Positions 31,692 through 45,627 of a stretch of DNA of 64,000 nucleotides are shown here, in pieces (position 1 is the stretch's first letter; the number at the start of each line of letters is the position of its first letter). The notes below the pieces were generated by a model. It did not search any database and was not told the DNA's origin. It saw only the letters and a list, made by a program, of their open reading frames with translations. Source of the DNA: Caldithrix abyssi DSM 13497 (GTDB lineage: Bacteria; Calditrichota; Calditrichia; Calditrichales; Calditrichaceae); assembly GCF_001886815.1 (NCBI RefSeq), contig NZ_CP018099.1, positions 1,486,501-1,550,500 of the forward strand. Direction: 5' to 3'. Position numbers and translations under genes: made by a program.

Positions 31692-33659
31692 ATGTTTTTT
31701 TATTTCATTTTTGTTGCCATCCTCAGTTTTTCTACCTTATTCGGTCAGACCATCGATTCGGTTCTGATTGTCAGCGATCCTGAATTTGTTTTCTCTTATA
31801 AACCAAATACCAAAAAACAGGGTACGATTACTCTAATCTGCTATGACAACTACAATCAAGCTGTTGGAGCCGATGTTCCGATTATGGTTGAAGTTGGCAA
31901 TGCCTTCTTGCAAGGCGCCACTCTTTTTAAATCGGAATTTAATTCGGATTCAACCTACAACAAATTTTATTTCAGAACGGATGGAAACGGAAAGGTCGTT
32001 ATCGATTACATTCCAGATGAATTTCTGGTTGATACTTACAGTAATATTAAAAAGAATTATCTGGCGTTAAATCCGGATGCCACCGAAGAAGAAGTTTTGA
32101 ATGAATACCGGAGATATTTCATTAGAAAGTTTTTCTTTTCCAATGTATCCTTTACCAATCCAAACGATGATCAAACGGCCTACGGTTACGGCAATATCTC
32201 TGAAAAAAAGAGCAGTGTGTTTCCTGTGCTTTATGGGTACGACAGAATAATTATCAATGGCCTGGCCCAAGAGGGTTCTCCGTATATTTTTACTGCCGAA
32301 AATTATAAAGCTCCTCCCGTCAATATAGAAATTCAGGCTCTGGATATGTTTGGTAATCCGATGCCCGCTGGCGTATTAATAATTGTTGATTGTATCTGGG
32401 GCCGCCTGTACAGCGATGCCATTATTCATAAGTCTGAATCGCAAACCAGTTATTATGTGTCGCCCCTGGAATATAATCCATCTTTTAGCGGCGGCGGCAC
32501 CTATGTGGTAAAACTAAAAGAGCAGGGGAGGGCAACTTTTCGCTATCAGCCCCCACCTACGACAATGGCGCCGTTTACACACTGGGCAAATGTCCAGTTG
32601 TCTTACAACAACTATCAAGATATGGAAGAAGCATGGAAGGCATATACCAGTAACGCCGTTATTGGATACGGACAGGGAACTTCAGTTTTTGATGAAATAA
32701 AAGGAGCAACCTGGTGGAAACCCTGGAATGACTACATGCAAACATATGCATTAGCTATTGACTCCGCGAACAGTGTTGTGCCGGCCCTTGTGGGCGTTGA
32801 CCAGATATCAATCGAGACGGAAACCGAACGCCATTTCAACTATGTTTACGCCTCGGAAAGCTATTCCGAAAAAGCAAAAATTAAGATAAAAGCTTATGAT
32901 AGTTATGGCCGGCCTGTGCCCAAAGGCGCGCCCGTGGCATTAATGCTTAATACGCGTTTTAGCGGAGGGGAAAAAGGCACAATTAGCGGGCCTGATGTTG
33001 TGGCGACAGCCTATGCCGGTTCTAAAGAGCTCTGCTTTATTGTTTTAATGGGCGAAGGCGGGGAGGCGGAAGTCGAATACCATGCGCCATTGGTGCCTTT
33101 CAGATTTGAACATTATTCAGGGGAGGATTACAAAGGTTTAACGTATGAAGAAAAATACAGCGGACTGTTCGATTTTTTTCCCGTACCTTATTATGGCTGG
33201 AGCTGGTGGGGAGATACCTTAAATCCGCCGCATTGGTTTTTTGGCTATATTTATGGTAGCTATTCCAATCCTTATGTCAATACCTTGCGCGAAAGTTCGT
33301 TCGGCGCTTTTCCCGTTCTGTTAGGACCTCAACAAGCAGAAGCCTGGTTCCATCCTTCGCGTTTAGGCCCGTCAAAATACATGGCCAGGTTAAATGTGTA
33401 TGTTAAAGATTATTTCGGAAATCCCGCGCCCAGAGGTAGCAATATTTACATTACGGTTGGCTCCGGCAAACTGAACGGCGACAAAGACGCCCTTAACGCC
33501 ATTGTTTACGGCACAAATGGCAAAGCCAGCGTCTCTTATTTTTCTCCCACCCGTTCTGTGTGGCATACCTGGTCTTACGATAAAATTCAGGTGTATCAGG
33601 ATGGAGCAGGAAGCTTTTTAAAAGAGGCTCTACTGGGATTCCTGTGGAAAAAGGTCTAA
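31692..33659 (+). pseudogene. 5-prime part of an IS-split secreted Por-sorted protein
   Basis: The reading frame of a large secreted protein runs from the ATG at 31692 (GGGGGG ribosome site, signal peptide residues 1-18) to 33625. There an ISL3 element interrupts it; the last ten codons are IS sequence ending at a stop in 33657-33659. The native part contains Ig-like or invasin-like beta domains: each block opens with DSVLIVSDPEFVFSYKPNTK-like strands and includes IEIQALDMFGNPMPAGVLI, IKIKAYDSYGRPVPKGAPV and LNVYVKDYFGNPAPRGSNI. These repeated D-x-(F/Y)-G-x-P-x-P motifs mark at least three domains. The truncated product could be exported but would lack its sorting signal. Confidence 0.88.
33618..33625. 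repeat. left target-site duplication of the ISL3 element
   Basis: TTAAAAGA directly abuts the left inverted repeat. An identical copy is at 34914-34921. Eight bp is the usual duplication for ISL3 elements. Confidence 0.92.
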
Positions 33660-34913
33660 TTTACCAAGAAAGAAAAGTATTGCTATCCTAAAATTTTCAA
33701 ATTTTCTAAAGCCTCTACCAACTGTTTTTATCTCCTGTATCTTGCCGTTCAACCATTCGGCTACTGAATTATCTATCTGATATCTTATATAGTTTAATAA
33801 GCCATCTGAATGAGCAATGAGCATTTTTGCTACTTTAATCATTTTATTTAAAGAACGTCCCTTAATATCCTGATACCATTCCGCAAAAAAGAATTTCGCA
33901 TCATTTATTGTTTCACTCCTAAAGAATTCTTTGAAGTTCTCTTTGGCCGCCCAAGCCTGGGAAGTGATAAGGTTAAGTTCTTGAATTTTTCTGAAACGCG
34001 ATAATTGCTTGTCCGTCATATTTTCCGGATTCTTTAAAAATAAATATTTACTTTTCACTAAGGTTTTATCATTAGATTTTTGTAATTTACGGGCTTCCTC
34101 TCGTCTGGTTTTATCCACTCCATCATTTAAATACTTCATTATATGAAATTTGTCATGCACTATGGAAGCATTGGGAAGCTCCTTTTGAACAGCTTTAATA
34201 AAAGCTTTCCACATATCCATACTGACCGCTTTGAGGCCCTCCTTTTGTTTCTCTGTTAATCCCTTGTTTATTAAGGAACTGGCAGAGCTTGTTGTGCGAC
34301 CTTCACTTACATCTATTACACGTCTTCTTTCACTATCGGATAATACGCTTACATAAGTATGACCTCTTTTCATACTCTTCTCATCTATCCCGATATATTT
34401 AATGTCCTCTTCCGTTCGGCGTGATAGCCCGCGTTCCACTGCTTTGCTCATTATATGATGAAGCATATCAAAGCTGATCCGTAAAAATTGTGCCGTTTTG
34501 CTCTGGTTTTTGGAGGCCAGTAATAACTCAATAGCAAAACGTTCAAATAATAAAGTCGTTCGACTCGACTTTTCTGCCCAAGGAACTTTGATCGTTTTTA
34601 CTCCGTGTTCCTTGCATTTAATGCGGGGAACTTTGCAGACAATATAGGTCTTCATTTGGCATGTATCCAAATGCCGCCAACGACGTTTTTCGCGATGATC
34701 ATAAATATCATATTCCACTTCGCATTCGGGACAAAAACCTTTTTTTGACTTATAGATAATCTCTATTTCTACTTCCTCATTCGCAATATCTAAGTCAACT
34801 TTAGACACTTCCCAGGGATGCGAAAGTCCCAAAATCTGTTTAAATAATTCTTTATCTTTCATAAACTCAATCTAAGGATTATTTTTGTTTTTCACAAAAA
34901 TCCCAGTAGAGCC
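33626..34913. mobile_element. ISL3-family insertion sequence
   Basis: A 1288-bp element. The terminal inverted repeats begin GGCTCTACTGGGATT on the left (33626) and the same, as complement, on the right (ending at 34913). GGCTCT is typical for ISL3. It has one transposase gene on the minus strand and a perfect 8-bp target duplication outside. Removing the element and one duplication copy rejoins the host gene in frame, so the insertion is recent. Confidence 0.95.
33630..34862 (-). CDS. tnp: ISL3-family transposase
   Basis: 410 aa. An N-terminal zinc-binding region (C44-x2-C47 and later C68, C76, C83-x2-H86) precedes a helix-turn-helix-like region and the DDE domain: IGIDEKSMKRGHTYVSVL with D160, KAVSMDMWKAF with D216, and a late Glu in SVAEWLNGKIQEIKTVGRGF near residue 375. 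The stop codon (TAG) lies inside the left inverted repeat. The full-length ORF without frameshifts suggests an active element. Confidence 0.95.
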   Translation of the reverse strand: MKDKELFKQILGLSHPWEVSKVDLDIANEEVEIEIIYKSKKGFCPECEVEYDIYDHREKRRWRHLDTCQMKTYIVCKVPRIKCKEHGVKTIKVPWAEKSSRTTLLFERFAIELLLASKNQSKTAQFLRISFDMLHHIMSKAVERGLSRRTEEDIKYIGIDEKSMKRGHTYVSVLSDSERRRVIDVSEGRTTSSASSLINKGLTEKQKEGLKAVSMDMWKAFIKAVQKELPNASIVHDKFHIMKYLNDGVDKTRREEARKLQKSNDKTLVKSKYLFLKNPENMTDKQLSRFRKIQELNLITSQAWAAKENFKEFFRSETINDAKFFFAEWYQDIKGRSLNKMIKVAKMLIAHSDGLLNYIRYQIDNSVAEWLNGKIQEIKTVGRGFRKFENFRIAILFFLGKLDLFPQESQ

Positions 34914-37086: not shown

Positions 37087-38184
37087 ATGAAAAAGCGAGT
37101 TTTGGTACTTACAGGCGGCGGCGATTGTCCGGGTTTGAATGCTGTAATTCGGGCTATTGTCAAAAGAGCCGCTCAGGAATACAATTGGGAAGTGTTGGGC
37201 AGCTATCAGGCGTTTAACGGTATTTTACGTGAACCAATGGAAATCATTCCTCTTGATGAAAAAAAGGTTTCTGGCATACATGTAAAAGGCGGAACCATCA
37301 TTGGAACGACCAATAAGGGCGGCCCCTTTGCCTGGCCCGTTAAAGATAAAAACGGTAAATGGATTACGGTTGATCGCTCAGACGAGTTAATCCGACGCTT
37401 GCAGTATCAGAATATTGAGGCGGTCATTAACATCGGCGGAGACGGTTCTCAGCGTATTTCGCTTGCCCTTTATGAAAAAGGATTGAATATCATCGGCGTT
37501 CCTAAAACCATCGACAATGATTTGCGAGGAACCGACTTTACCTTTGGTTTTCAGACGGCGGTTGAAATTTCAACAGACGCCGTTGACAAACTGGTCACCA
37601 CGGCCGAAAGTCACAATCGCGTTTTTATTCTGGAAGTGATGGGACGGGATGCCGGATGGATCGCCTTGCATGCGGCCGTTGCCGGCGGCGCCGAAATCTG
37701 CCTGATTCCGGAAATACCCTATGATGTCAACAAGGTGGTGGAAAAACTGCGTAGTCGAATCGTCGGCGGACGTGGGTTTGCCATTATTGTCATTGCAGAA
37801 GGCGCCAAGCCCATTGGCGGAGATGTGGTCTCCGAGCAGTCAGACGAGATCGGTTATTTGAACAAAAAACTGGGCGGGGCCGGTTTACGGCTTAAAGAGG
37901 AGCTGAAGCAGGCCGGATTCGATGAGGACATCCGCGTCACCATCCTGGGGCATTTACAGCGCGGCGGCACACCGGTGGCTTACGACCGCATTCTGGCCTC
38001 CCAATTTGGCGTCAAGGCCTTCGAAATGGTTCTCAATGAGGAATATGGCAAAATGGTTTCCTACAAACATCCCGATATTTGTTCCATTCCGCTTGAAGAA
38101 GCCGTTTCGGCCTATAATCATGTTCAGCCGGATGATCAGTTGTTGCACACCGCCCGCGGCCTGGGCATCAGCTTCGGCGATTAA
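37087..38184 (+). CDS. pfkA: 6-phosphofructokinase, group III type
   Basis: 365 aa, cytoplasmic. The N-terminal nucleotide loop is LTGGGDCPGLNAVIRA; GGDGS (117-121) and PKTIDND (139-145) frame the active site, with MGRDAGW near 195. The pair Gly at the GGDGS position and Lys in PKTIDND is a mixture: classical ATP enzymes have G/G and PPi enzymes D/K. Group III proteins with G and K are mostly ATP-dependent, so ATP is the likelier phosphoryl donor, but PPi cannot be excluded from sequence alone. The enzyme catalyses the committed step of glycolysis. It is monocistronic with its own promoter and terminator. Confidence 0.9.
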   Translation: MKKRVLVLTGGGDCPGLNAVIRAIVKRAAQEYNWEVLGSYQAFNGILREPMEIIPLDEKKVSGIHVKGGTIIGTTNKGGPFAWPVKDKNGKWITVDRSDELIRRLQYQNIEAVINIGGDGSQRISLALYEKGLNIIGVPKTIDNDLRGTDFTFGFQTAVEISTDAVDKLVTTAESHNRVFILEVMGRDAGWIALHAAVAGGAEICLIPEIPYDVNKVVEKLRSRIVGGRGFAIIVIAEGAKPIGGDVVSEQSDEIGYLNKKLGGAGLRLKEELKQAGFDEDIRVTILGHLQRGGTPVAYDRILASQFGVKAFEMVLNEEYGKMVSYKHPDICSIPLEEAVSAYNHVQPDDQLLHTARGLGISFGD

Positions 38185-38246: not shown

Positions 38247-38551
38247 ATCTATTGTTCACTCGATTAAATGCTTTACAACCTTTGAAAAAATAAGACGCAT
38301 CGCAAAAATCAGGCGGCAGTCTCAATGTAACTTTGATTGAATCGAGCGCAAGATTTTTTTAATCACAATCCTTTTTCGCTCAATCATTAAACCATTCAAC
38401 CAGGCATGGATTTCCCGGGCTTGCCCTCACCCGATAAAGCGGGATTCGGAAAGACAGGCAGGTGAGCATTCAACCAATAATCGACCGGCAAATTTTGCAT
38501 TCAGGCCGATTTATCTTAAATTACTTCTGTGTTTTGATCCGGAGTTTGCCA

Positions 38552-39673
38552 ATGACACACGAGGATGTTTTTCAAGAAGTTCACAATCAGATTCCCCTTA
38601 ATCGTAAGCTGACTCTTATTCATGAAAATTTGCAAAACTATCTTCCCTTTATTGATCGCATTGCCTTTGCTCTCTACGATTCCAAAACAGATATTTTGCG
38701 AACATTTCTGGTAAGCGAACCGCATGCGCATTCGCTTTGTCTTTACGAGTCGAAACTTTCCGAAGTCCCTTCTCTTTTAGCTCTCAAACATGAAAGAAGT
38801 CCGAGAATAATTGAAGATATCAGCAGGTTGTATGGTGATTCCAAAGAACATTCCCGACGAATAAAAGAGAGCGGCTACCGTTCCAGCTACACTCTGCCCA
38901 TGTTTTCAGACGAGGCGTTGCTTGGTTTCATCTTTTTTAATTCCCGTCAGAAAAGTCCTTTTCAAGGCGCCGATCTGAATTTGCTGGATCTTTATGCGCA
39001 TTTGATTTTTAGTCTGATATTGTTTGAACTCAATCAGACCAGGGTGTTGCTTTCTTCTTTGAAAACACTTAGTAAAATCATGCATTTTAAAGATCCTGAA
39101 ACGGGCGCGCACCTGGAACGCATGGCGCATTTTTCACGGATCATCGCCGCCGGCCTGGCTGCTAAAGGGAAATACCGGATAGACGATGAGTTTATTCAAT
39201 TTTTGTCAGCCTTTGCGCCGCTGCATGATATCGGCAAAATCGGCATTCCCGACGAAATTTTATTCAAACCGCAAAAACTCGAACCGCAGGAATTTCAGGT
39301 TATGAAGCAGCACACGCTAAAGGGCCGGGAGATTATCGATTTGATAATAAGCAATCTACAGGTCAAGCCAACGGCCTATGTGGAAATGCTGCGCCATATT
39401 CCCGAACTTCATCACGAAAAACTTAACGGCCGGGGCTATCCACACGGTTACGAGAAAGATCAAATTCCGCTGGAAGCGCAAATCATCGCCGTGGCCGATA
39501 TTTTTGACGCCCTGACCAGCGATCGGCCGTACAAGAAAAAATGGACAAACGAGGAAGCTTTAATTTATTTAAAAAAACATCCCTCCGAATGGAGCGCGGA
39601 AATTGTGCAGGCGTTAGAAGATAATATGTCCAAAATTGTGGAAATTCAGCAAAAGTTTAAGGACAAAGAGTAA
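38552..39673 (+). CDS. GAF plus HD-GYP domain protein, cyclic-di-GMP phosphodiesterase-like
   Basis: 373 aa from the ATG at 38552, which has GGAG 8 bp upstream; an earlier in-frame start is unlikely. The N-terminal half (about 15-170) looks like a GAF sensor. The HD-GYP domain follows, with LHDIGKIGIPDEIL (HD pair, about 226-239), H at KQHTLKGREI, HHEKLNGRGYPHGYEKD (GYP motif) and VADIFDALTSDRPYKKKW. All expected catalytic residues are present, so c-di-GMP hydrolysis is likely. There is no membrane segment. It lies 18 bp before the homocysteine methyltransferase gene, perhaps by chance. Confidence 0.88.
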   Translation: MTHEDVFQEVHNQIPLNRKLTLIHENLQNYLPFIDRIAFALYDSKTDILRTFLVSEPHAHSLCLYESKLSEVPSLLALKHERSPRIIEDISRLYGDSKEHSRRIKESGYRSSYTLPMFSDEALLGFIFFNSRQKSPFQGADLNLLDLYAHLIFSLILFELNQTRVLLSSLKTLSKIMHFKDPETGAHLERMAHFSRIIAAGLAAKGKYRIDDEFIQFLSAFAPLHDIGKIGIPDEILFKPQKLEPQEFQVMKQHTLKGREIIDLIISNLQVKPTAYVEMLRHIPELHHEKLNGRGYPHGYEKDQIPLEAQIIAVADIFDALTSDRPYKKKWTNEEALIYLKKHPSEWSAEIVQALEDNMSKIVEIQQKFKDKE

Positions 39674-39690: not shown

Positions 39691-40581
39691 ATGGAATCTG
39701 TTCTCTTAAAACGACTATCCGCTGGCGATATTTTATTATGCGATGGCGCCATGGGAACCGAACTGCAAAAACGCGGCCTGAAACGAGGAGAATGCCCGGA
39801 ACTGATGAATATCGAACAGCCGCAAATCGTACAATCCATTTATCGGGATTATTACGCGGCAGGCTCGGATATTGTAGAAACCAATAGTTTTGGCGGAACA
39901 CGCAGCCGCCTGTCTCATTACGATTTGCAGGATCAGGCTTATCGCTTAAATAGAGAGGCCGCCCGCCTGGCAAAAGAGGTCTGCCCGGAAGGGCGTTTTG
40001 TGGCTGGCTCCATGGGCCCCACCGGCGCCATTCTGGAACCGTATGGAGAGCTGAGTGTGGATGAAGCCGTCGATCAATTTAAAGAACAGGCAGAAGCGCT
40101 GGCCGAAGGCGGCGTGGATATTTTTTTCATCGAAACGATGATTACCCTGGAAGAGATGGGCGCAGCCATCCAGGCGGTTAAATCGGTTAGCGATCTGCCC
40201 GTTGCAGCCACCTTTACGTTTGAATTAGGCCCCACGGGCATTCACACCAACTGGGGCGTGGATGTGCCCAGCGCCGTGCGCTTTTTGACAGAGCAGGGCG
40301 TGGATATTTTAGGCGCCAACTGCGGCGAAGGAATCGATGTCATTTTGCGCACCGTTCAGGAAATGCGCAAGTTAACGGATTTACCCATTCTTGCCCAGCC
40401 CAATGCCGGCCTGCCTGAAATCAAAAACGAGGTAATCGTTTACCATGAAACGCCGGAAGCGATGCGGGAGAAGATAAAAGAACTACTTGCGCTACAGATT
40501 AACATTCTTGGCGGCTGTTGCGGCACCTCTGCCAGTCACATCAAAATGATGCGCGAATTGATCGACGGTAAAGGCCAGTAA
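39691..40581 (+). CDS. cobalamin-dependent homocysteine methyltransferase domain, MetH N-terminal type
   Basis: 296 aa, matching the isolated homocysteine-binding module of MetH. The opening LLCDGAMGTELQKRGLKRGECPEL and VETNSFGGTRSRL are family signatures. Zinc ligands are C211 (GANCGEG), C276 and C277 (GGCCGTS). The cobalamin module is encoded by the next gene and no folate-binding module is present. It should transfer a methyl group from the corrinoid partner to homocysteine, giving methionine. Betaine- or S-methylmethionine-dependent activity is possible in this fold but less likely beside a corrinoid gene. Confidence 0.88.
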   Translation: MESVLLKRLSAGDILLCDGAMGTELQKRGLKRGECPELMNIEQPQIVQSIYRDYYAAGSDIVETNSFGGTRSRLSHYDLQDQAYRLNREAARLAKEVCPEGRFVAGSMGPTGAILEPYGELSVDEAVDQFKEQAEALAEGGVDIFFIETMITLEEMGAAIQAVKSVSDLPVAATFTFELGPTGIHTNWGVDVPSAVRFLTEQGVDILGANCGEGIDVILRTVQEMRKLTDLPILAQPNAGLPEIKNEVIVYHETPEAMREKIKELLALQINILGGCCGTSASHIKMMRELIDGKGQ

Positions 40582-40602
40582 AAAAATTTTTATTTTTGTA
40601 CT

Positions 40603-40631
40603 TTAGTTTTTAAATTGTTTTTAAAAACTAA
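40603..40631 (+). promoter_or_regulatory. AT-rich perfect hairpin before the corrinoid-protein gene
   Basis: TTAGTTTTTAAA (40603-40614) pairs perfectly with TTTAAAAACTAA (40620-40631) over a 5-nt loop, ending 20 bp before the ATG. It could modulate expression between the two genes. No cobalamin-riboswitch B12-box is seen. Confidence 0.4.
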
Positions 40632-40651
40632 CATGAATTGATCTACAACTT

Positions 40652-41317
40652 ATGTGCAATGACCTGTTAAAACAACTCGGCGTTTGTATTGAACGGGGAA
40701 AGGCGGACGCACAATCACCCCATCCGGCCGACCTTAAGGGCCAGCCCGGGGCCGCCGAACTGACCGCAAAATTATTATCCGCCGGCGTTGCGCCGGGCGA
40801 GATTTTGCAAAAGGCCATGATCCCGGCCATGAAACGGCTGGGCGATCGCTTCAGTCAGGGGCTGGTTTTCATTCCCGATTTGATTATTGCCGCCAAAGCC
40901 ATGAAGGCCGCCATGCAACATTTAAAGCCCTATTTTGAAGCGGGAGAGGTGCAAAAAAAAGGCACGTTTGTTCTGGGAACGGTTAAGGGCGATTTACACG
41001 ACATCGGTAAAAATCTGGTGGGTATGGTGCTGGAAGGAAACGGTTACAGGGTGATCGATCTGGGGGTTAATGTTTCCAGCGACCGTTTTTTACAGACGGT
41101 GGAGGAACATCCCGACTGTCGTGTGGGGCTGAGCGCCCTATTAACGACCACCATGCTGTACATGGATGAAATTGTTAAAACCGTGAAGAGCCATTTTCCG
41201 CAGGTGCCCATTTTTATCGGCGGCGCGCCCGTAACGCCCGAGTTCAATCAGCAGATTGGCGCCAACGGTTACTTTCCCGATCCACAACAACTGGTAAATT
41301 TCCTGGAAACAAAATAA
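40652..41317 (+). CDS. corrinoid (B12-binding) methyl-carrier protein
   Basis: 221 aa, the size of MtaC/MtbC/MttC-type corrinoid proteins. A helical cap domain (about 35-95, ILQKAMIPAMKRLGDRFSQG) precedes the Rossmann B12 domain with GDLHDIGKNLVGMVLEGNGY: D114, H116 (cobalt ligand) and G119 form the DxHxxG motif. Then SALLTTTM and FIGGAPV complete the lower-ligand pocket. It accepts methyl groups from a donor-specific methyltransferase and passes them on, here plausibly from the UroD-type protein to the MetH-type protein. Confidence 0.93.
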   Translation: MCNDLLKQLGVCIERGKADAQSPHPADLKGQPGAAELTAKLLSAGVAPGEILQKAMIPAMKRLGDRFSQGLVFIPDLIIAAKAMKAAMQHLKPYFEAGEVQKKGTFVLGTVKGDLHDIGKNLVGMVLEGNGYRVIDLGVNVSSDRFLQTVEEHPDCRVGLSALLTTTMLYMDEIVKTVKSHFPQVPIFIGGAPVTPEFNQQIGANGYFPDPQQLVNFLETK

Positions 41318-41330
41318 CCAGGGAGAATGC

Positions 41331-42185
41331 ATGATTCAATTTACCGCATTAGATATAGACCGCGCTCTTAAAATTCTGTACTTTCCTACGCCCGAGCCTG
41401 TTCTTAAGCATTACAATGCGCCTTACCTTTTAACAGAAGAGCAGGTTCGTTTTTTTCAGGAAGAAGGCTATGTTTACCTGCCCGAAGTAGTCAATAGGGA
41501 ATCGCTGGCTTACCTGCAACGCGTCATTCAGGCGGCCGTTTTACTGCGTAAAAAAGATGATGACAGGGCTCTGCACGAAAAAAGCGCCTATGAACAATCG
41601 TTTTTGCAATGCGGGTTTTTGTGCTGGGATTTTAAGCCCATTAAAGATTTTGTATTTGGTAAACGATTTGCTGGTTTGGCCAGAGACCTTTTGCAGGCAG
41701 AACATGTGCGTTTGTGGCACGACCAGGCGTTGTTTAAGGAACCAGGCGGCAGGGCAACCGACGTGCACATCGACAGCTCGTACTGGCCCATCGATCGGCC
41801 GCAACTGAGCGTCACCTTGTGGCTGGCGCTAAATCCCGTGCCGCCGGAAAAGGGTTGCCTTTATTTTTATCCCAAAAGCCACCTTTTAGAAAAACACGAA
41901 TATGTGGATATTTTTAACAAGCCTCATTTTCCACAGGCATTGAGCCGTGAAAAGCAGGTATATGTTCCGCTAAATCCTGGCGATGCCACCTTTCACAGCG
42001 GGCTTCTTTATCATGGCGCCGGCGAAAATAAGACCGATCGGATGCGTGAAGGAATGACGGTTATTTACATTGCTGATGGTCTGCGTTTTGACGCCAGCGA
42101 TGCCCGCAACCGCACGCACACTTCGTGCCAGGGCTTGGAAGATGGCGACATCATTGATACACGCTACACACCGATTTTAATATGA
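41331..42185 (+). CDS. phytanoyl-CoA dioxygenase (PhyH)-family protein
   Basis: 284 aa. The double-stranded beta-helix Fe(II)/2-oxoglutarate oxygenase fold is indicated by DVHIDSSYWPIDRPQLSVTL (HxD metal pair near residue 145), PEKGCLYFYPKSH, and FHSGLLYHGAGENKTDRMRE (distal His and 2-oxoglutarate Arg). It is 14 bp after the corrinoid gene and 8 bp before the UroD-type gene, so it is part of the same operon. An oxygenase inside a corrinoid cassette is unusual. It may hydroxylate the methylated substrate; which substrate is unknown. Confidence 0.82.
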   Translation: MIQFTALDIDRALKILYFPTPEPVLKHYNAPYLLTEEQVRFFQEEGYVYLPEVVNRESLAYLQRVIQAAVLLRKKDDDRALHEKSAYEQSFLQCGFLCWDFKPIKDFVFGKRFAGLARDLLQAEHVRLWHDQALFKEPGGRATDVHIDSSYWPIDRPQLSVTLWLALNPVPPEKGCLYFYPKSHLLEKHEYVDIFNKPHFPQALSREKQVYVPLNPGDATFHSGLLYHGAGENKTDRMREGMTVIYIADGLRFDASDARNRTHTSCQGLEDGDIIDTRYTPILI

Positions 42186-42192
42186 GGAGACC

Positions 42193-43215
42193 ATGCGCCC
42201 GGATATTTCAGTATTGATTCGAACATTGAAACGGGAGAAAGCCGCCTATGTGCCGCTTGTTGAGCTGGGCATTCATCCGCTGATTAAAGAAAAATTTTTA
42301 GGGCGGCCTATATTAAGTCTGGAAGATGAAATTGCCTTCTGGTACAGGGCCGGTTATGATTATGTAAAGTTACAACCCGGTGTAACCTTCAACCTTTCCG
42401 ACGACAAGAAGGATTCTACTTTTCAAAAAAAACTGGATGGCGCCCTGGCCTATAATTGGGCCAATGAAGGACAGGGTATAGTAACCTCGTTTGAAGACCT
42501 TGAAAAATTACGTCTGCCCGGAAAAGAAGAGATTGATTATTCGAATTTTGAGCGTGTTACCTCCCTTTTGCCAGAAGGCATGGGCGTTATTGGTCAGTAT
42601 GGCGACATCTTTACCATGACCTGGGAATTGATGGGATTTGAGGGTTTTTCGTTAGCCCTGTTCGAAAATCCAGATTTGATCAAAGAGCTCAATAATCGCC
42701 TCGGAGAGTTGGTTCTGTCCATGTTTGAATTTATGGCGCAACACGATGCGGTTGACATCCTGTGGTTTAGCGACGACATTGCTTTTAGCACCGGTTTATT
42801 GATGTCGCCGGACGTTCTCCGGCAGTATTTCTTCCCCTGGTTAAAAAGAATCGGCGAGCTGGCGCAGGCCTATGGCAAGCCGCTCATTTACCACACCGAC
42901 GGCGTGTTGTGGGATGTTTTTGAAGATATTATCGCCTGCGGCGTGGACGCCCTGCATCCCATTGAGCCCAAGGCCATGGACCTGGCGGAGGTTAAACAAA
43001 AATATGGCCAACGTCTCTGTTTGATTGGCGGCGTTGACGTGGATTTGCTGGCACGGGGCACGCCGCAAGAAGTGGAAGCGCAGGTTAAGCGCAATATTGA
43101 AATAGCTGCTTACAACGGCGGATATTGCGCGGGCTCTGGCAACAGCATTCCCGATTATATTAAATACGAAAATTACCTGGCGCTAATTGAAGCGGCCAAA
43201 AAATACGGAGAATAG
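42193..43215 (+). CDS. UroD-family methyltransferase
   Basis: 340 aa TIM-barrel protein of the uroporphyrinogen decarboxylase/MtaA-like superfamily (EDEIAFWYRAGYDYVKLQPG; MGVIGQYGDIFTMTWELMGF; HPIEPKAMDLAEVKQKYG; GGVDVDLLARGT). Thiol-methylating members use an HxC zinc site; here the equivalent reads YHTDG (H234, D236), with C312 in GGYCAGSGNSIP as the likely third ligand. The lost Cys and the neighbouring corrinoid gene favour a donor-side methyltransferase over haem synthesis, for which the typical UroD N-terminus is missing. Substrate unknown. Confidence 0.82.
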   Translation: MRPDISVLIRTLKREKAAYVPLVELGIHPLIKEKFLGRPILSLEDEIAFWYRAGYDYVKLQPGVTFNLSDDKKDSTFQKKLDGALAYNWANEGQGIVTSFEDLEKLRLPGKEEIDYSNFERVTSLLPEGMGVIGQYGDIFTMTWELMGFEGFSLALFENPDLIKELNNRLGELVLSMFEFMAQHDAVDILWFSDDIAFSTGLLMSPDVLRQYFFPWLKRIGELAQAYGKPLIYHTDGVLWDVFEDIIACGVDALHPIEPKAMDLAEVKQKYGQRLCLIGGVDVDLLARGTPQEVEAQVKRNIEIAAYNGGYCAGSGNSIPDYIKYENYLALIEAAKKYGE

Positions 43216-43224
43216 ACAGCCTTC

Positions 43225-44394
43225 ATGTTTAAAAGCGGCAACCATCGGTTTTTAAAAGGTCTGAACTGTAAACACATATTGAATTTATTGCGTACGCACC
43301 AGGGGCTTACTGCCCGCCAGTTAAGCGAACAGACCGGCCTCAAAATTGCCACGGTTCTTAATTTGTTAAAAAACCTTGAAAAGCACAACCAGGTGATTCG
43401 CAAAGAACGTGGCGCTTCCACCGCGCGCGGAGGCAAAAAACCGCTCATCTGGGATATTAATCCCCATTTCGGTCTGGCGCTGGGAGTGGAGTGGCTTTCC
43501 ACCGAACTCAGGGCGGCGCTTATCAATTTTAATTTTGAATTAATCGAGCGCAAAACGTTTGTCTTTCCCGCAAAGTTAACGGATAGCCAAAAGGTTGAAT
43601 TTTTTGTTAAAAGCATTGATGAATTTGTTGCAACGTTCAACACGCTACAGCGGCCGATTGTGGGGCTGGGCGTCGGTCTGGCTGGCATTATTGATCTGGC
43701 GGCCGGATGCGTTGTGGATTCCTTGTCCTTTCAATCCCGTAACTTTCCGCTTTTGAAGACGCTGAAAGCTTGCTTTCCCTTCCCGGTATTTCTTGACAAT
43801 GAATCCAATGTGGGAGCGCTTGGCCTGAAATGGCTATTGCCGCAGTTTTACGATAAGAGAAATCTGTTATATGTGACACTTCATCAGTGTTTTTCGGGTA
43901 TGGGAACGGGGTTCATATTTAACCATCAACTCTATCGTGGCAGGCAAAATTCAACGGGCGAATGGCCTGTACTTTTTTCTCCTTCCTTTTTTGCCAAACT
44001 TGCAAGCCAGCTGGCGCAAATACATAAAGGCCACCCATTCATCGATTTATTAAGAAACTACAACGACCTGTCTAAAATTTTTCGCGCAGCTATTGAGCTG
44101 GCTGAGCAAAACGAGCCGATTGCTCTGGAGTTTATGCGCTTCGTTTCCATGCCATTAGCCGGACGTTTACAGCTATTGATTAACCTGCTTGACCCTGAAT
44201 ATGTGGTGATTGGCGGGGATATTCTTGAGATAAGCAAATATCTCAAATCGCATCTGGAGCAACAGATTTTTAATGAGGGACTCATTGGAAAACAGAAGCT
44301 TCCGGGATTAATGTTTTCTCCATTTGGCGCTTATACCAACGCGTTGGGAGCGGCCGCAACTGTTATGGCCGATATCTACTCGCCTGATTCCTGA
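43225..44394 (+). CDS. ROK-family transcriptional regulator
   Basis: 389 aa. An N-terminal winged HTH (about 12-60, ILNLLRTHQGLTARQLSEQT) is joined to a ROK domain beginning WDINPHFGLALGVEWLSTEL, with the GLGVGLAGIIDLAAG motif and VVIGGDI near the end. The usual ROK zinc motif CxCGxxGC is not present; GMGTGFIFNHQLYRGRQNST stands in its place, so sugar-kinase activity is unlikely. It lies 9 bp after the UroD-type gene and may control the methyl-transfer cassette, perhaps in response to a carbohydrate-like ligand. Confidence 0.85.
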   Translation: MFKSGNHRFLKGLNCKHILNLLRTHQGLTARQLSEQTGLKIATVLNLLKNLEKHNQVIRKERGASTARGGKKPLIWDINPHFGLALGVEWLSTELRAALINFNFELIERKTFVFPAKLTDSQKVEFFVKSIDEFVATFNTLQRPIVGLGVGLAGIIDLAAGCVVDSLSFQSRNFPLLKTLKACFPFPVFLDNESNVGALGLKWLLPQFYDKRNLLYVTLHQCFSGMGTGFIFNHQLYRGRQNSTGEWPVLFSPSFFAKLASQLAQIHKGHPFIDLLRNYNDLSKIFRAAIELAEQNEPIALEFMRFVSMPLAGRLQLLINLLDPEYVVIGGDILEISKYLKSHLEQQIFNEGLIGKQKLPGLMFSPFGAYTNALGAAATVMADIYSPDS

Positions 44395-44407: not shown

Positions 44408-44510
44408 AGAGGTTCCCACGCTACACGCCGGAAGAAAGTCAGGCCGTCAACGCCTAAAAAATTCTGCAGGAAGTTTCGGCTATTCTAAATCAACTGACCT
44501 GTTTGGAGTG
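44408..44510 (+). other. possible relic of a short coding sequence
   Basis: Downstream of the ROK gene one frame reads as protein-like text, RFPRYTPEESQAVNA, a stop, then KILQEVSAILNQLTCLE and a stop. The two pieces look like the two sides of a single helix-rich peptide broken by one nonsense codon. It overlaps the 3-prime end of the opposing kinase gene. Evidence is composition only. Confidence 0.2.
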
Positions 44511-45374
44511 ATCTTCGCGCAATTCCGCATCCAGAAATATCTCGCCAAGGTGCAGAAAAGAGGCTTGTTCCACGTCAAATTGAGGCACCAGGCAGACGCA
44601 GATTTGATCGTTGTCGTAAATTGATCGGGCAATCGCTAGGCTTACAATAAACTTTTCGTTGTCCAGAAACGCAATAATTCTGCCCCGTACATTTTGCACC
44701 GTGTAACGTTCGGGAAGTGAACCACAAAGCGTAAGATTGCTGATATCGACGACTTGCAAATCGCTGTTCTGAAAATATTCGCGAAACTTGTTCTCGCGAT
44801 ATTCTTTGCGTATGGGCATACTCCGCGGCGTAACGTATTGCGAAACAGGAATGCGTTTTAACTCGATGCCGCCTAACCGTCCCACATGTTGATTAAGCGC
44901 CTCCAATTCCTGTTCGCGTTCTACCAGAATCACAAGATCGGGTTTAATCGCTTCTATGATCGCGGCCTGAAATTCAACGGCCGCGGGGCCGGCTGAATAT
45001 CCGGAAGAATCCATTATGGTAAATTTAGCGCCTTGCTCCACAACCCTGGCATGTAGCCTTACGATGCTTAGCAAACTAAGCAGCGGCTTACGCTGAGGCG
45101 TGGTAACCCCGATAAAGCGACTGAAAACGTGTTGTGGAGAAGACAGGGAGGCGTCGTAAATCCCTGCGTTAAGAGTGGTAGGCAGTCCCAGGTTAGATTG
45201 GCCAGGATCGCAATCAATCCAGGCGACTTTTTCAATTTGTGCTAACTCCTGCACAAGAAAGCGGCTAAGCGTGGTTTTACCACAATCCGTATTCCCAACG
45301 ACATACACTGTGTGATAAGGATGGGATTTGATGTCATTGAGCAGATCATCCCAAAAAGGTTCTTTATTAATCAT
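44490..45374 (-). CDS. Clp1/Grc3-like polynucleotide 5-prime-hydroxyl kinase
   Basis: 294 aa from the ATG at 45374; a TTG four codons upstream is a less likely start. The P-loop is VVGNTDCGKTTLSRFL (Walker A at 27-35), followed by KVAWIDCDPGQSNLGLP (about 49-65), the Walker B/clasp segment specific to the Clp1/Grc3/Nol9 kinases. PRSMPIRKEYRENKFREYF near 185-203 matches the Arg-rich lid segment ending in YF. These kinases phosphorylate RNA or DNA 5-prime ends in eukaryotes and archaea; bacterial members are uncommon. The C-terminal 80 residues are a beta-rich domain with FLHLGEIFLDAEL at the end. The gene stands alone, convergent to the ROK gene. Confidence 0.82.
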   Translation of the reverse strand: MINKEPFWDDLLNDIKSHPYHTVYVVGNTDCGKTTLSRFLVQELAQIEKVAWIDCDPGQSNLGLPTTLNAGIYDASLSSPQHVFSRFIGVTTPQRKPLLSLLSIVRLHARVVEQGAKFTIMDSSGYSAGPAAVEFQAAIIEAIKPDLVILVEREQELEALNQHVGRLGGIELKRIPVSQYVTPRSMPIRKEYRENKFREYFQNSDLQVVDISNLTLCGSLPERYTVQNVRGRIIAFLDNEKFIVSLAIARSIYDNDQICVCLVPQFDVEQASFLHLGEIFLDAELREDHSKQVS

Positions 45375-45627
45375 GGTTCCAACCAACTATGTTAGTTGAA
45401 CTGACAAAATATATTCAGCAAAAACGAAATCCCTGATTTTTTAAGTCTGGTGAATCTGCTAATAAAATATACGCAATTTCAGTAAAAATACAAATCTTAT
45501 TAAAAATAAACCTCTGATGGATGAAAGCGCACAGAATGCAATAAAATGAAAAGAACATCACAAAAGGAAAGTTCATCCTCTGTTATAGCGCCTGAGGTGA
45601 AATCTGTGTCATCGGCAGAGGGGAAGA

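Follow-up and report, generated by a model that had tools for sequence, protein, structure and literature searches.

A compact operon of five co-directional genes on the forward strand of the Caldithrix abyssi DSM 13497 genome, at positions 39691-44394 of the 64,000-base window analysed here (bases 1486501-1550500 of the single 4,978,541-base contig), is predicted to encode a three-component corrinoid O-demethylase that delivers methyl groups to homocysteine, with a methylated sugar as the most likely donor. We put the probability of this reading at roughly 60%; it rests on gene content, conserved co-occurrence, family membership and site residues, all read directly from the sequence. The genes are arranged in the order HCY, CORR, PhyH, UroD1 and ROK, with intergenic gaps of 70, 13, 7 and 9 bp:

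39691..40581, forward strand: HCY, a single-domain homocysteine S-methyltransferase of the MetH homocysteine-module or MtgE/Bmt type (PF02574, 255 bits)
40652..41317, forward strand: CORR, a corrinoid carrier protein of the MtgC/MtaC type (PF02607 and PF02310)
41331..42185, forward strand: PhyH, an accessory Fe(II)/2-oxoglutarate oxygenase (PF05721, 109 bits)
42193..43215, forward strand: UroD1, a UroD-superfamily putative donor-side methyltransferase (PF01208, 89 bits)
43225..44394, forward strand: ROK-family regulator (PF00480 and a winged-helix helix-turn-helix domain)

All five open reading frames (ORFs) of this cassette, described in an original prediction made from the sequence alone, are present and belong to the Pfam families read there. 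As had also been stated, the homocysteine and corrinoid modules of MetH are split between two genes (PF02574 apart from PF02607 and PF02310) and the folate module is missing, none of the five genes having a Pfam match to the folate (PF00809) or activation (PF02965) domain. The operon itself was therefore rejected as a canonical MetH; both of these modules are found in a complete MetH of 1250 amino acids encoded apart from it. We infer a direction of methyl flow, an acceptor, a donor and an activator as follows. A hard metal site in UroD1 (H234, D236 and probably E258) would hold the O-methylated substrate, whose methyl group UroD1 would pass to CORR at Co(I). Methyl-CORR would then dock on the separate HCY, which would methylate homocysteine to methionine. 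Oxidised cobalt of CORR would be brought back to Co(I) by the single reductive activator of corrinoid proteins (RACE) of the genome, encoded elsewhere, and in many relatives by a stand-alone, S-adenosylmethionine (SAM)-binding MetH reactivation domain adjoining CORR. The donor would most likely be a methylated sugar or sugar acid, ROK would sense a sugar, and PhyH would serve as an accessory oxygenase, probably acting on the same or a related sugar.

The association of HCY, CORR and UroD1 recurs well beyond this genome. When nine UroD1 sequences were searched against GTDB species genomes, 80 loci (47-75% identity) were returned, 76 of them readable; they span Calditrichota, Ignavibacteriota, Neomarinimicrobiota, KSB1, Delongbacteria, Sumerlaeota and WOR-3; no UroD1 relatives were found in the viral contigs searched. 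Within five genes of UroD1, CORR was present at 35 of the 76 loci, HCY at 28/76 and a stand-alone PF02965 protein at 19/76, with lower counts for ROK (7/76), PhyH (6/76) and RACE (0/76). About 0.9 occurrences of CORR and 0.3 of HCY would be expected by chance, far fewer than observed, although this calculation ignores the dependence among the loci. The co-occurrence check proposed together with the original prediction thus returned a clustering of the core genes far above chance outside this genome. At least five gene orders were seen in Calditrichota, Ignavibacteriota, Neomarinimicrobiota, WOR-3 and others, the order varying by group: HCY-CORR-PhyH-UroD-ROK, CORR-PF02965-UroD, CORR-PhyH-PF02965-UroD-ROK, UroD divergent from HCY-PF02965-CORR, UroD-HCY with CORR divergent, and UroD-CORR. 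Additionally, stand-alone HCY is encoded in 10/10 UroD1-positive and 7/30 UroD1-negative Calditrichota genomes (Fisher p 2e-5) and in 50/50 UroD1-positive genomes from the wider scan (counts tallied by hand from per-genome tables); the majority of those 50 encode a full MetH too. Collectively, this evidence supports HCY, CORR and UroD1 as a conserved corrinoid methyl-transfer module that includes its own acceptor methyltransferase, and corrinoid-mediated transfer between UroD1 and HCY via CORR is in our judgement very probable.

The match of UroD1 to PF01208 (89 bits) begins only at residue 97, and the genome encodes a separate HemE (441 bits, C1:3186433), a comparison by which UroD1 was rejected as the uroporphyrinogen decarboxylase. 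The AlphaFold model of UroD1 (pLDDT 91.8) finds as its best Foldseek match in the PDB the methylcobalamin:coenzyme M (CoM) methyltransferase of Methanosarcina mazei (4ay7), followed by HemE. Decarboxylase activity, named beforehand as the outcome that would overturn the original prediction, is therefore unlikely, because a genuine HemE is encoded separately and the nearest structure is a corrinoid methyltransferase. In an alignment with 4ay7 and H-x-C relatives, H234 is kept, D236 takes the place of a Cys, E258 is invariant and no C-terminal Cys remains; a row entered as the genome's own HemE was in fact a neighbouring ORF and was disregarded. The H-x-D site noticed earlier is thus H234-T-D236, with D236 conserved at 90% or more among 71 relatives, and UroD1 resembles the corrinoid methyltransferases MtaA and MtbA but with His-x-Asp plus Glu. 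Within the superfamily, S-methyltransferases use His-Cys-Cys, whereas O-methyltransferases swap one or both Cys for carboxylates or lose them (PMC10418091). By this rule the H-x-D motif and the lost C-terminal Cys, a carboxylate replacement as in UroD-type O-demethylases, point to UroD1 as a putative methyltransferase of the O- rather than the S-type. The third UroD-family gene of the genome (G000:C1:2805622-2806182; L051:9607-10665) has an HSD motif, and no corrinoid gene lies near it.

On the acceptor side, HCY is a protein of 296 amino acids with one domain. Its best NCBIfam model is PRK07534 (betaine-homocysteine methyltransferase), at 264 bits against a cut-off of 338, and it is also near PRK08645, likewise under the cut-off. 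Among 32 relatives, at least 97% keep C211, C276 and C277, the presumed zinc ligands of the family. A whole-genome search for PF00809 found this domain only in a protein of 391 amino acids, the size of a dihydropteroate synthase, and in the complete MetH; the folate exit usual for corrinoid demethylases is therefore missing, with neither a stand-alone MtgD-like folate methyltransferase, the methyl-tetrahydrofolate (methyl-THF) subunit of split MetH systems, nor a folate-type methyltransferase II, the partner of UroD-type O-demethylases, detected. HCY is the sole acceptor enzyme encoded in the operon, and we regard homocysteine as the probable main methyl acceptor. The proposed route from a methylated compound to methionine is upheld to the extent that the module is conserved and homocysteine its likely acceptor; because a full MetH is present, the cassette is not the sole methionine route. 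In some relatives UroD2 is also present, with the H-x-C...C pattern of thiol methyltransferases, and a different acceptor is therefore possible there.

CORR contains both B12-binding-type domains of a corrinoid carrier (PF02607 and PF02310) and the sequence GDLHDIGKN (D-x-H-x-x-G); its nearest NCBIfam model is MtgC_2, at 177 bits under a cut-off of 370. Judged by size, it is the only carrier-type protein among seven B12-binding hits in the genome. In a tree, the carriers of UroD1, UroD3 and MtaB loci form one group (support 100/99), which suggests that the carrier is kept while the donors change. The genome has exactly one RACE (C1:3409382-3410149, 627 amino acids), and none is encoded in the window operon or at any of the 76 scanned UroD1 loci, in agreement with the earlier remark that no RACE gene is near. 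In a whole-genome search PF02965 was found only inside the complete MetH. By elimination, given one RACE, no stand-alone PF02965 protein and one B12 protein of carrier size, this RACE would serve CORR. In relatives, stand-alone PF02965 proteins, mostly of 230-257 amino acids, were found at L035:10720-11481 and 22 other loci, including beside CORR. They mostly retain R-x-SPGY (cf. RPAPGY of the complete MetH), to which a C-terminal C-x2-C-x4/5-C motif is added; because this SAM motif is retained as in MetH, they likely act as SAM-dependent activators. With one RACE elsewhere in the genome and a MetH-type activator in relatives, the missing nearby RACE was dismissed as a defect of the cassette.

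The strongest clue to the substrate comes from sister cassettes in which the same carrier and acceptor accompany other donor enzymes. Enzymes of family GH115 cleave (4-O-methyl)glucuronic acid off xylan, and UxuA is part of glucuronate catabolism. One Calditrichota genome without UroD1, G006, encodes CORR, HCY and a PF02965 protein with a further UroD, UroD3, and with GH115, GH43 and a major facilitator superfamily (MFS) transporter (L146:481-8997). A search of 297 genomes with UroD3 returned five relatives (61-74% identity), and the six loci contain the following:

GH115 in 4/6 UroD3 loci: L146, L164, L167, L168
GH43 in 4/6: L146, L164, L166, L167
CORR plus HCY in 4/6: L146, L164, L165, L167
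PF02965 in 3/6: L146, L165, L167
UxuA in L164 (L164:2970-18989), Pfam-confirmed
GH10 in L166, Pfam-confirmed

UroD3 has H-x-D as UroD1 does, and because GH115 and UxuA lie beside it, UroD3 is a good candidate for a 4-O-methylglucuronate demethylase. Yet another donor, UroD4, occurs with CORR and HCY at L181:5757-9391 and L182:8140-14114, together with NagA, a NagB-like protein, phosphomannose isomerase, SSF, a LacI gene in one of the two loci, and a divergent PhyH that is 54-55% like that of the window. In two Calditrichota loci (L044:6004-10716 and L045:9695-14572), the methanol:corrinoid methyltransferase MtaB is accompanied by the same CORR and PhyH, a stand-alone PF02965 protein and a UroD that is about 30% identical to UroD1 and carries H-x-C. 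As a separate observation, the UroD3-like (31%) loci L170:347-10589 and L171:8722-17295 contain HCY, a MetH-activation-like protein and RACE, with CORR seen in L170 and, by eye, apparent methylene-THF reductase and pterin methyltransferase genes.

At UroD1's own loci, hints of sugar metabolism are scattered: ROK regulators; a 6-phosphofructokinase (PFK) gene upstream, in the window and in congener G002; a phosphoglucose isomerase-like gene as the first gene before CORR (L065, L074 and L091); a glucosamine-6-phosphate-deaminase-like gene preceding UroD1 (L133); and GH2 and rhamnosidase-like genes (L096). No substrate clue is offered by the UroD1 neighbours in Neomarinimicrobiota (CysS, Ddl, HAD, PAP2) or in most Ignavibacteria (MatE, amino acid permease). 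The suggestion that the donor is a methylated sugar is thus backed by the sister loci and by sugar genes beside some UroD1 loci, a sugar being a candidate substrate of UroD1 itself, and we hold the odds of a sugar-type methyl ether as methyl donor to be about even.

PhyH and ROK had been thought to complete the operon, a view that did not hold, both being optional. The residues H146-x-D148, H228 and R239 of PhyH, to which we assign catalytic roles by analogy with PhyH, are invariant in nine homologues. Its nearest solved structures are SnoK and SnoN (23-25% identity), which we take to be nogalamycin biosynthesis enzymes acting on a sugar part. Wherever PhyH occurs at a UroD1 or MtaB locus, it sits directly downstream of CORR. 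In congener G001 (L033:895-1206), a PhyH remnant of residues 17-87 only, in two frames, lies between CORR and UroD1 and is a case of gene decay; PhyH is absent from congener G002 (L034). Elsewhere (L179:6303-8964 and L180:8022-10702), PhyH adjoins an Amidase_2/NamZ exo-muramidase gene near an MFS permease (Pfam checked in L180), with no corrinoid gene at either locus, and a link to muropeptide or amino-sugar use is possible there. On these grounds (remnant, absence and muramidase neighbours), PhyH was excluded from the core; it is probably an accessory sugar oxygenase for the same or a related sugar.

A methoxylated aromatic, a methyl halide or another small methyl compound as donor in place of a sugar would leave the corrinoid-to-homocysteine route otherwise unchanged, and CdmB, VdmB, OdmB and MtvB, the demethylases and dehalogenases of the UroD superfamily that have been characterised, use such substrates (PMC13222342). 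The UroD1 profile weakly matches CdmB, and many UroD1 loci, including most of those in Neomarinimicrobiota and Sumerlaeota, lack neighbouring sugar genes; however, the sister cassettes are located in sugar loci, no aromatic-degradation genes were seen adjoining UroD1, and the structures nearest to PhyH are sugar-tailoring enzymes, making a non-sugar donor rather unlikely. It is improbable that HCY alone acts as a cofactor-free betaine-, dimethylsulfoniopropionate (DMSP)- or S-methylmethionine-homocysteine methyltransferase, sharing its operon with a separate methyl system of CORR and UroD1. Such a role would agree with its top NCBIfam model and with the homologous homocysteine methyltransferase of Phaeobacter (Bmt), which acts in vitro on betaine and DMSP directly and without cofactor (PMC12366255), but in vivo the same Bmt also provides the homocysteine subunit of a split MetH that includes a CORR (PMC12478193). 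HCY and CORR moreover adjoin in several arrangements, together with the MetH activation domain, and without HCY no acceptor gene would remain in the genome outside MetH.

The cassette could also act as an additional general methionine synthase, with UroD1 standing in for the missing pterin domain and taking the methyl group from methyl-THF, as the near-constant presence of stand-alone HCY in UroD1 genomes and the wide spread of UroD1, often outside any obvious substrate locus, might suggest. This is highly improbable: a full MetH is already encoded in most UroD1 genomes, we know of no folate-binding UroD of the UroD1 kind, and the swapping of donors (UroD1, UroD3, UroD4, MtaB) on a kept carrier fits changing substrates. 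Hardly any weight is given to an activity of UroD1 on methyl-sulfur or methyl-selenium compounds, as in mlp gene clusters; although its nearest solved structure is a thiol methyltransferase and some loci add UroD2, UroD1 lacks both Cys ligands, which are near-invariant in such enzymes (PMC10418091), and no RACE lies in the cluster. Corrinoid-mediated demethylation of a sugar, with transfer to homocysteine, is the preferred assignment. Weighing against it, in addition to the loci poor in sugar genes and the cofactor-free activity of Bmt, are the following points. No member of UroD1 or UroD3 has a known activity, and about 29 of the 76 UroD1 loci, many on short contigs, contain no CORR, HCY or PF02965 protein within five genes. 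The xylan context does not transfer directly to UroD1, because the identity between UroD1 and UroD3 is only 15%, and the two substrates probably differ, given that G074 carries both UroD1 (L103) and UroD3 (L164). Finally, an O2-dependent PhyH is unexpected in an organism reported to be anaerobic (PMC5317091).

The nearest whole system is the MtgB-MtgC-MtgD-MtgE network of marine Pseudomonadota, in which a demethylase and methionine synthesis share one carrier. In Ruegeria and Phaeobacter, separate homocysteine (MtgE/Bmt) and corrinoid (MtgC) subunits likewise lead to methionine (PMC12478193; PMC12366255), and donor methyltransferases plug into the common carrier as they would here. Both stand-alone subunits have counterparts in the operon, with NCBIfam hits under the curated cut-offs. 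In the Mtg system, a glycine betaine demethylase as well as a split methionine synthase, the donor enzyme is a betaine methyltransferase (PF06253), with MtgD as the entry point of methyl-THF, whereas here the donor enzyme is a UroD and no folate subunit exists outside MetH, of which the window genome additionally has a complete copy. VdmB, OdmB, MtvB and CdmB of acetogens are likewise UroD-type methyltransferases I that serve a corrinoid protein, with Cys ligands replaced by carboxylates or lost (PMC13222342; PMC10418091), but they donate to tetrahydrofolate via methyltransferase II and use RACE, the partner of UroD1 being a homocysteine methyltransferase. In type 1 mlp gene clusters, too, a corrinoid protein is encoded beside UroD-superfamily methyltransferases and a folate methyltransferase is absent; these clusters contain at least two Mlps with His-Cys-Cys sites and a clustered Ram/RACE, and were proposed to act on methyl-sulfur or methyl-selenium compounds (PMC10418091). 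Membership in these clusters was rejected by definition, the operon having one UroD, an H-x-D motif, no clustered RACE and an HCY gene. MetH likewise has homocysteine and B12 modules, a likeness that in relatives extends to the SAM-dependent activation domain, but here the modules are separate genes and the absent folate module is replaced by UroD1. The methanol:CoM methyltransferase MtaABC is alike in carrier type and UroD fold, and MtaB is paired with the same CORR and PhyH in the two Calditrichota loci described above; the window operon has no MtaB and no sign of CoM as acceptor.

Upstream of HCY, two further genes lie on the same strand:

37087..38184, forward strand: 6-phosphofructokinase (PF00365)
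38462..39673, forward strand: GAF and HD-domain protein, ending 17 bp before HCY (PF13487/GAF)

The GAF/HD gene adjoins HCY also in congener G001; in G002 no such gene lies between PFK and HCY, and PFK adjoins HCY. The GAF/HD protein is possibly co-transcribed with the operon, though not core, and PFK is probably a mere neighbour. Promoter and terminator scans returned sites no more numerous than in shuffled sequence. Convergent to the operon, the reverse strand encodes a CLP1-type P-loop protein (44490-45386; PF16575, 134 bits), here found in a bacterium, and an ORF of similar size and like start occupies the same place in a congener (L034:3797-4723). An ISL3-like transposase, identified by eye, lies about 5 kb upstream of the operon on the reverse strand (33630-34862).

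We know of no established mechanism by which O-methyl ethers on sugars, such as that of 4-O-methylglucuronic acid, are removed without oxygen. A search of the open-access literature found no description of corrinoid or B12-dependent sugar demethylation, nor of a UroD-type O-demethylase coupled to homocysteine and accompanied, in relatives, by a MetH activation domain encoded as a protein of its own, which is weak evidence of novelty because the search covered open-access work only. The parts are already known; their combination of a UroD-type donor enzyme with a homocysteine acceptor may be new. We tentatively propose, at slightly less than even odds, an FCB-group family of corrinoid sugar O-demethylases in which exchangeable UroD1, UroD3 and UroD4 enzymes would strip methyl ethers from the sugars of plant and other glycans, UroD3 from the 4-O-methylglucuronic acid of xylan, and pass the methyl groups to homocysteine. 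If this is true, UroD-family genes now annotated as decarboxylases would gain a testable role, for which the xylan loci suggest a concrete substrate. Hemicellulose breakdown would then directly supply methionine, and in widespread bacteria, most of them uncultured, vitamin B12 would be tied both to hemicellulose degradation and to the methionine cycle.

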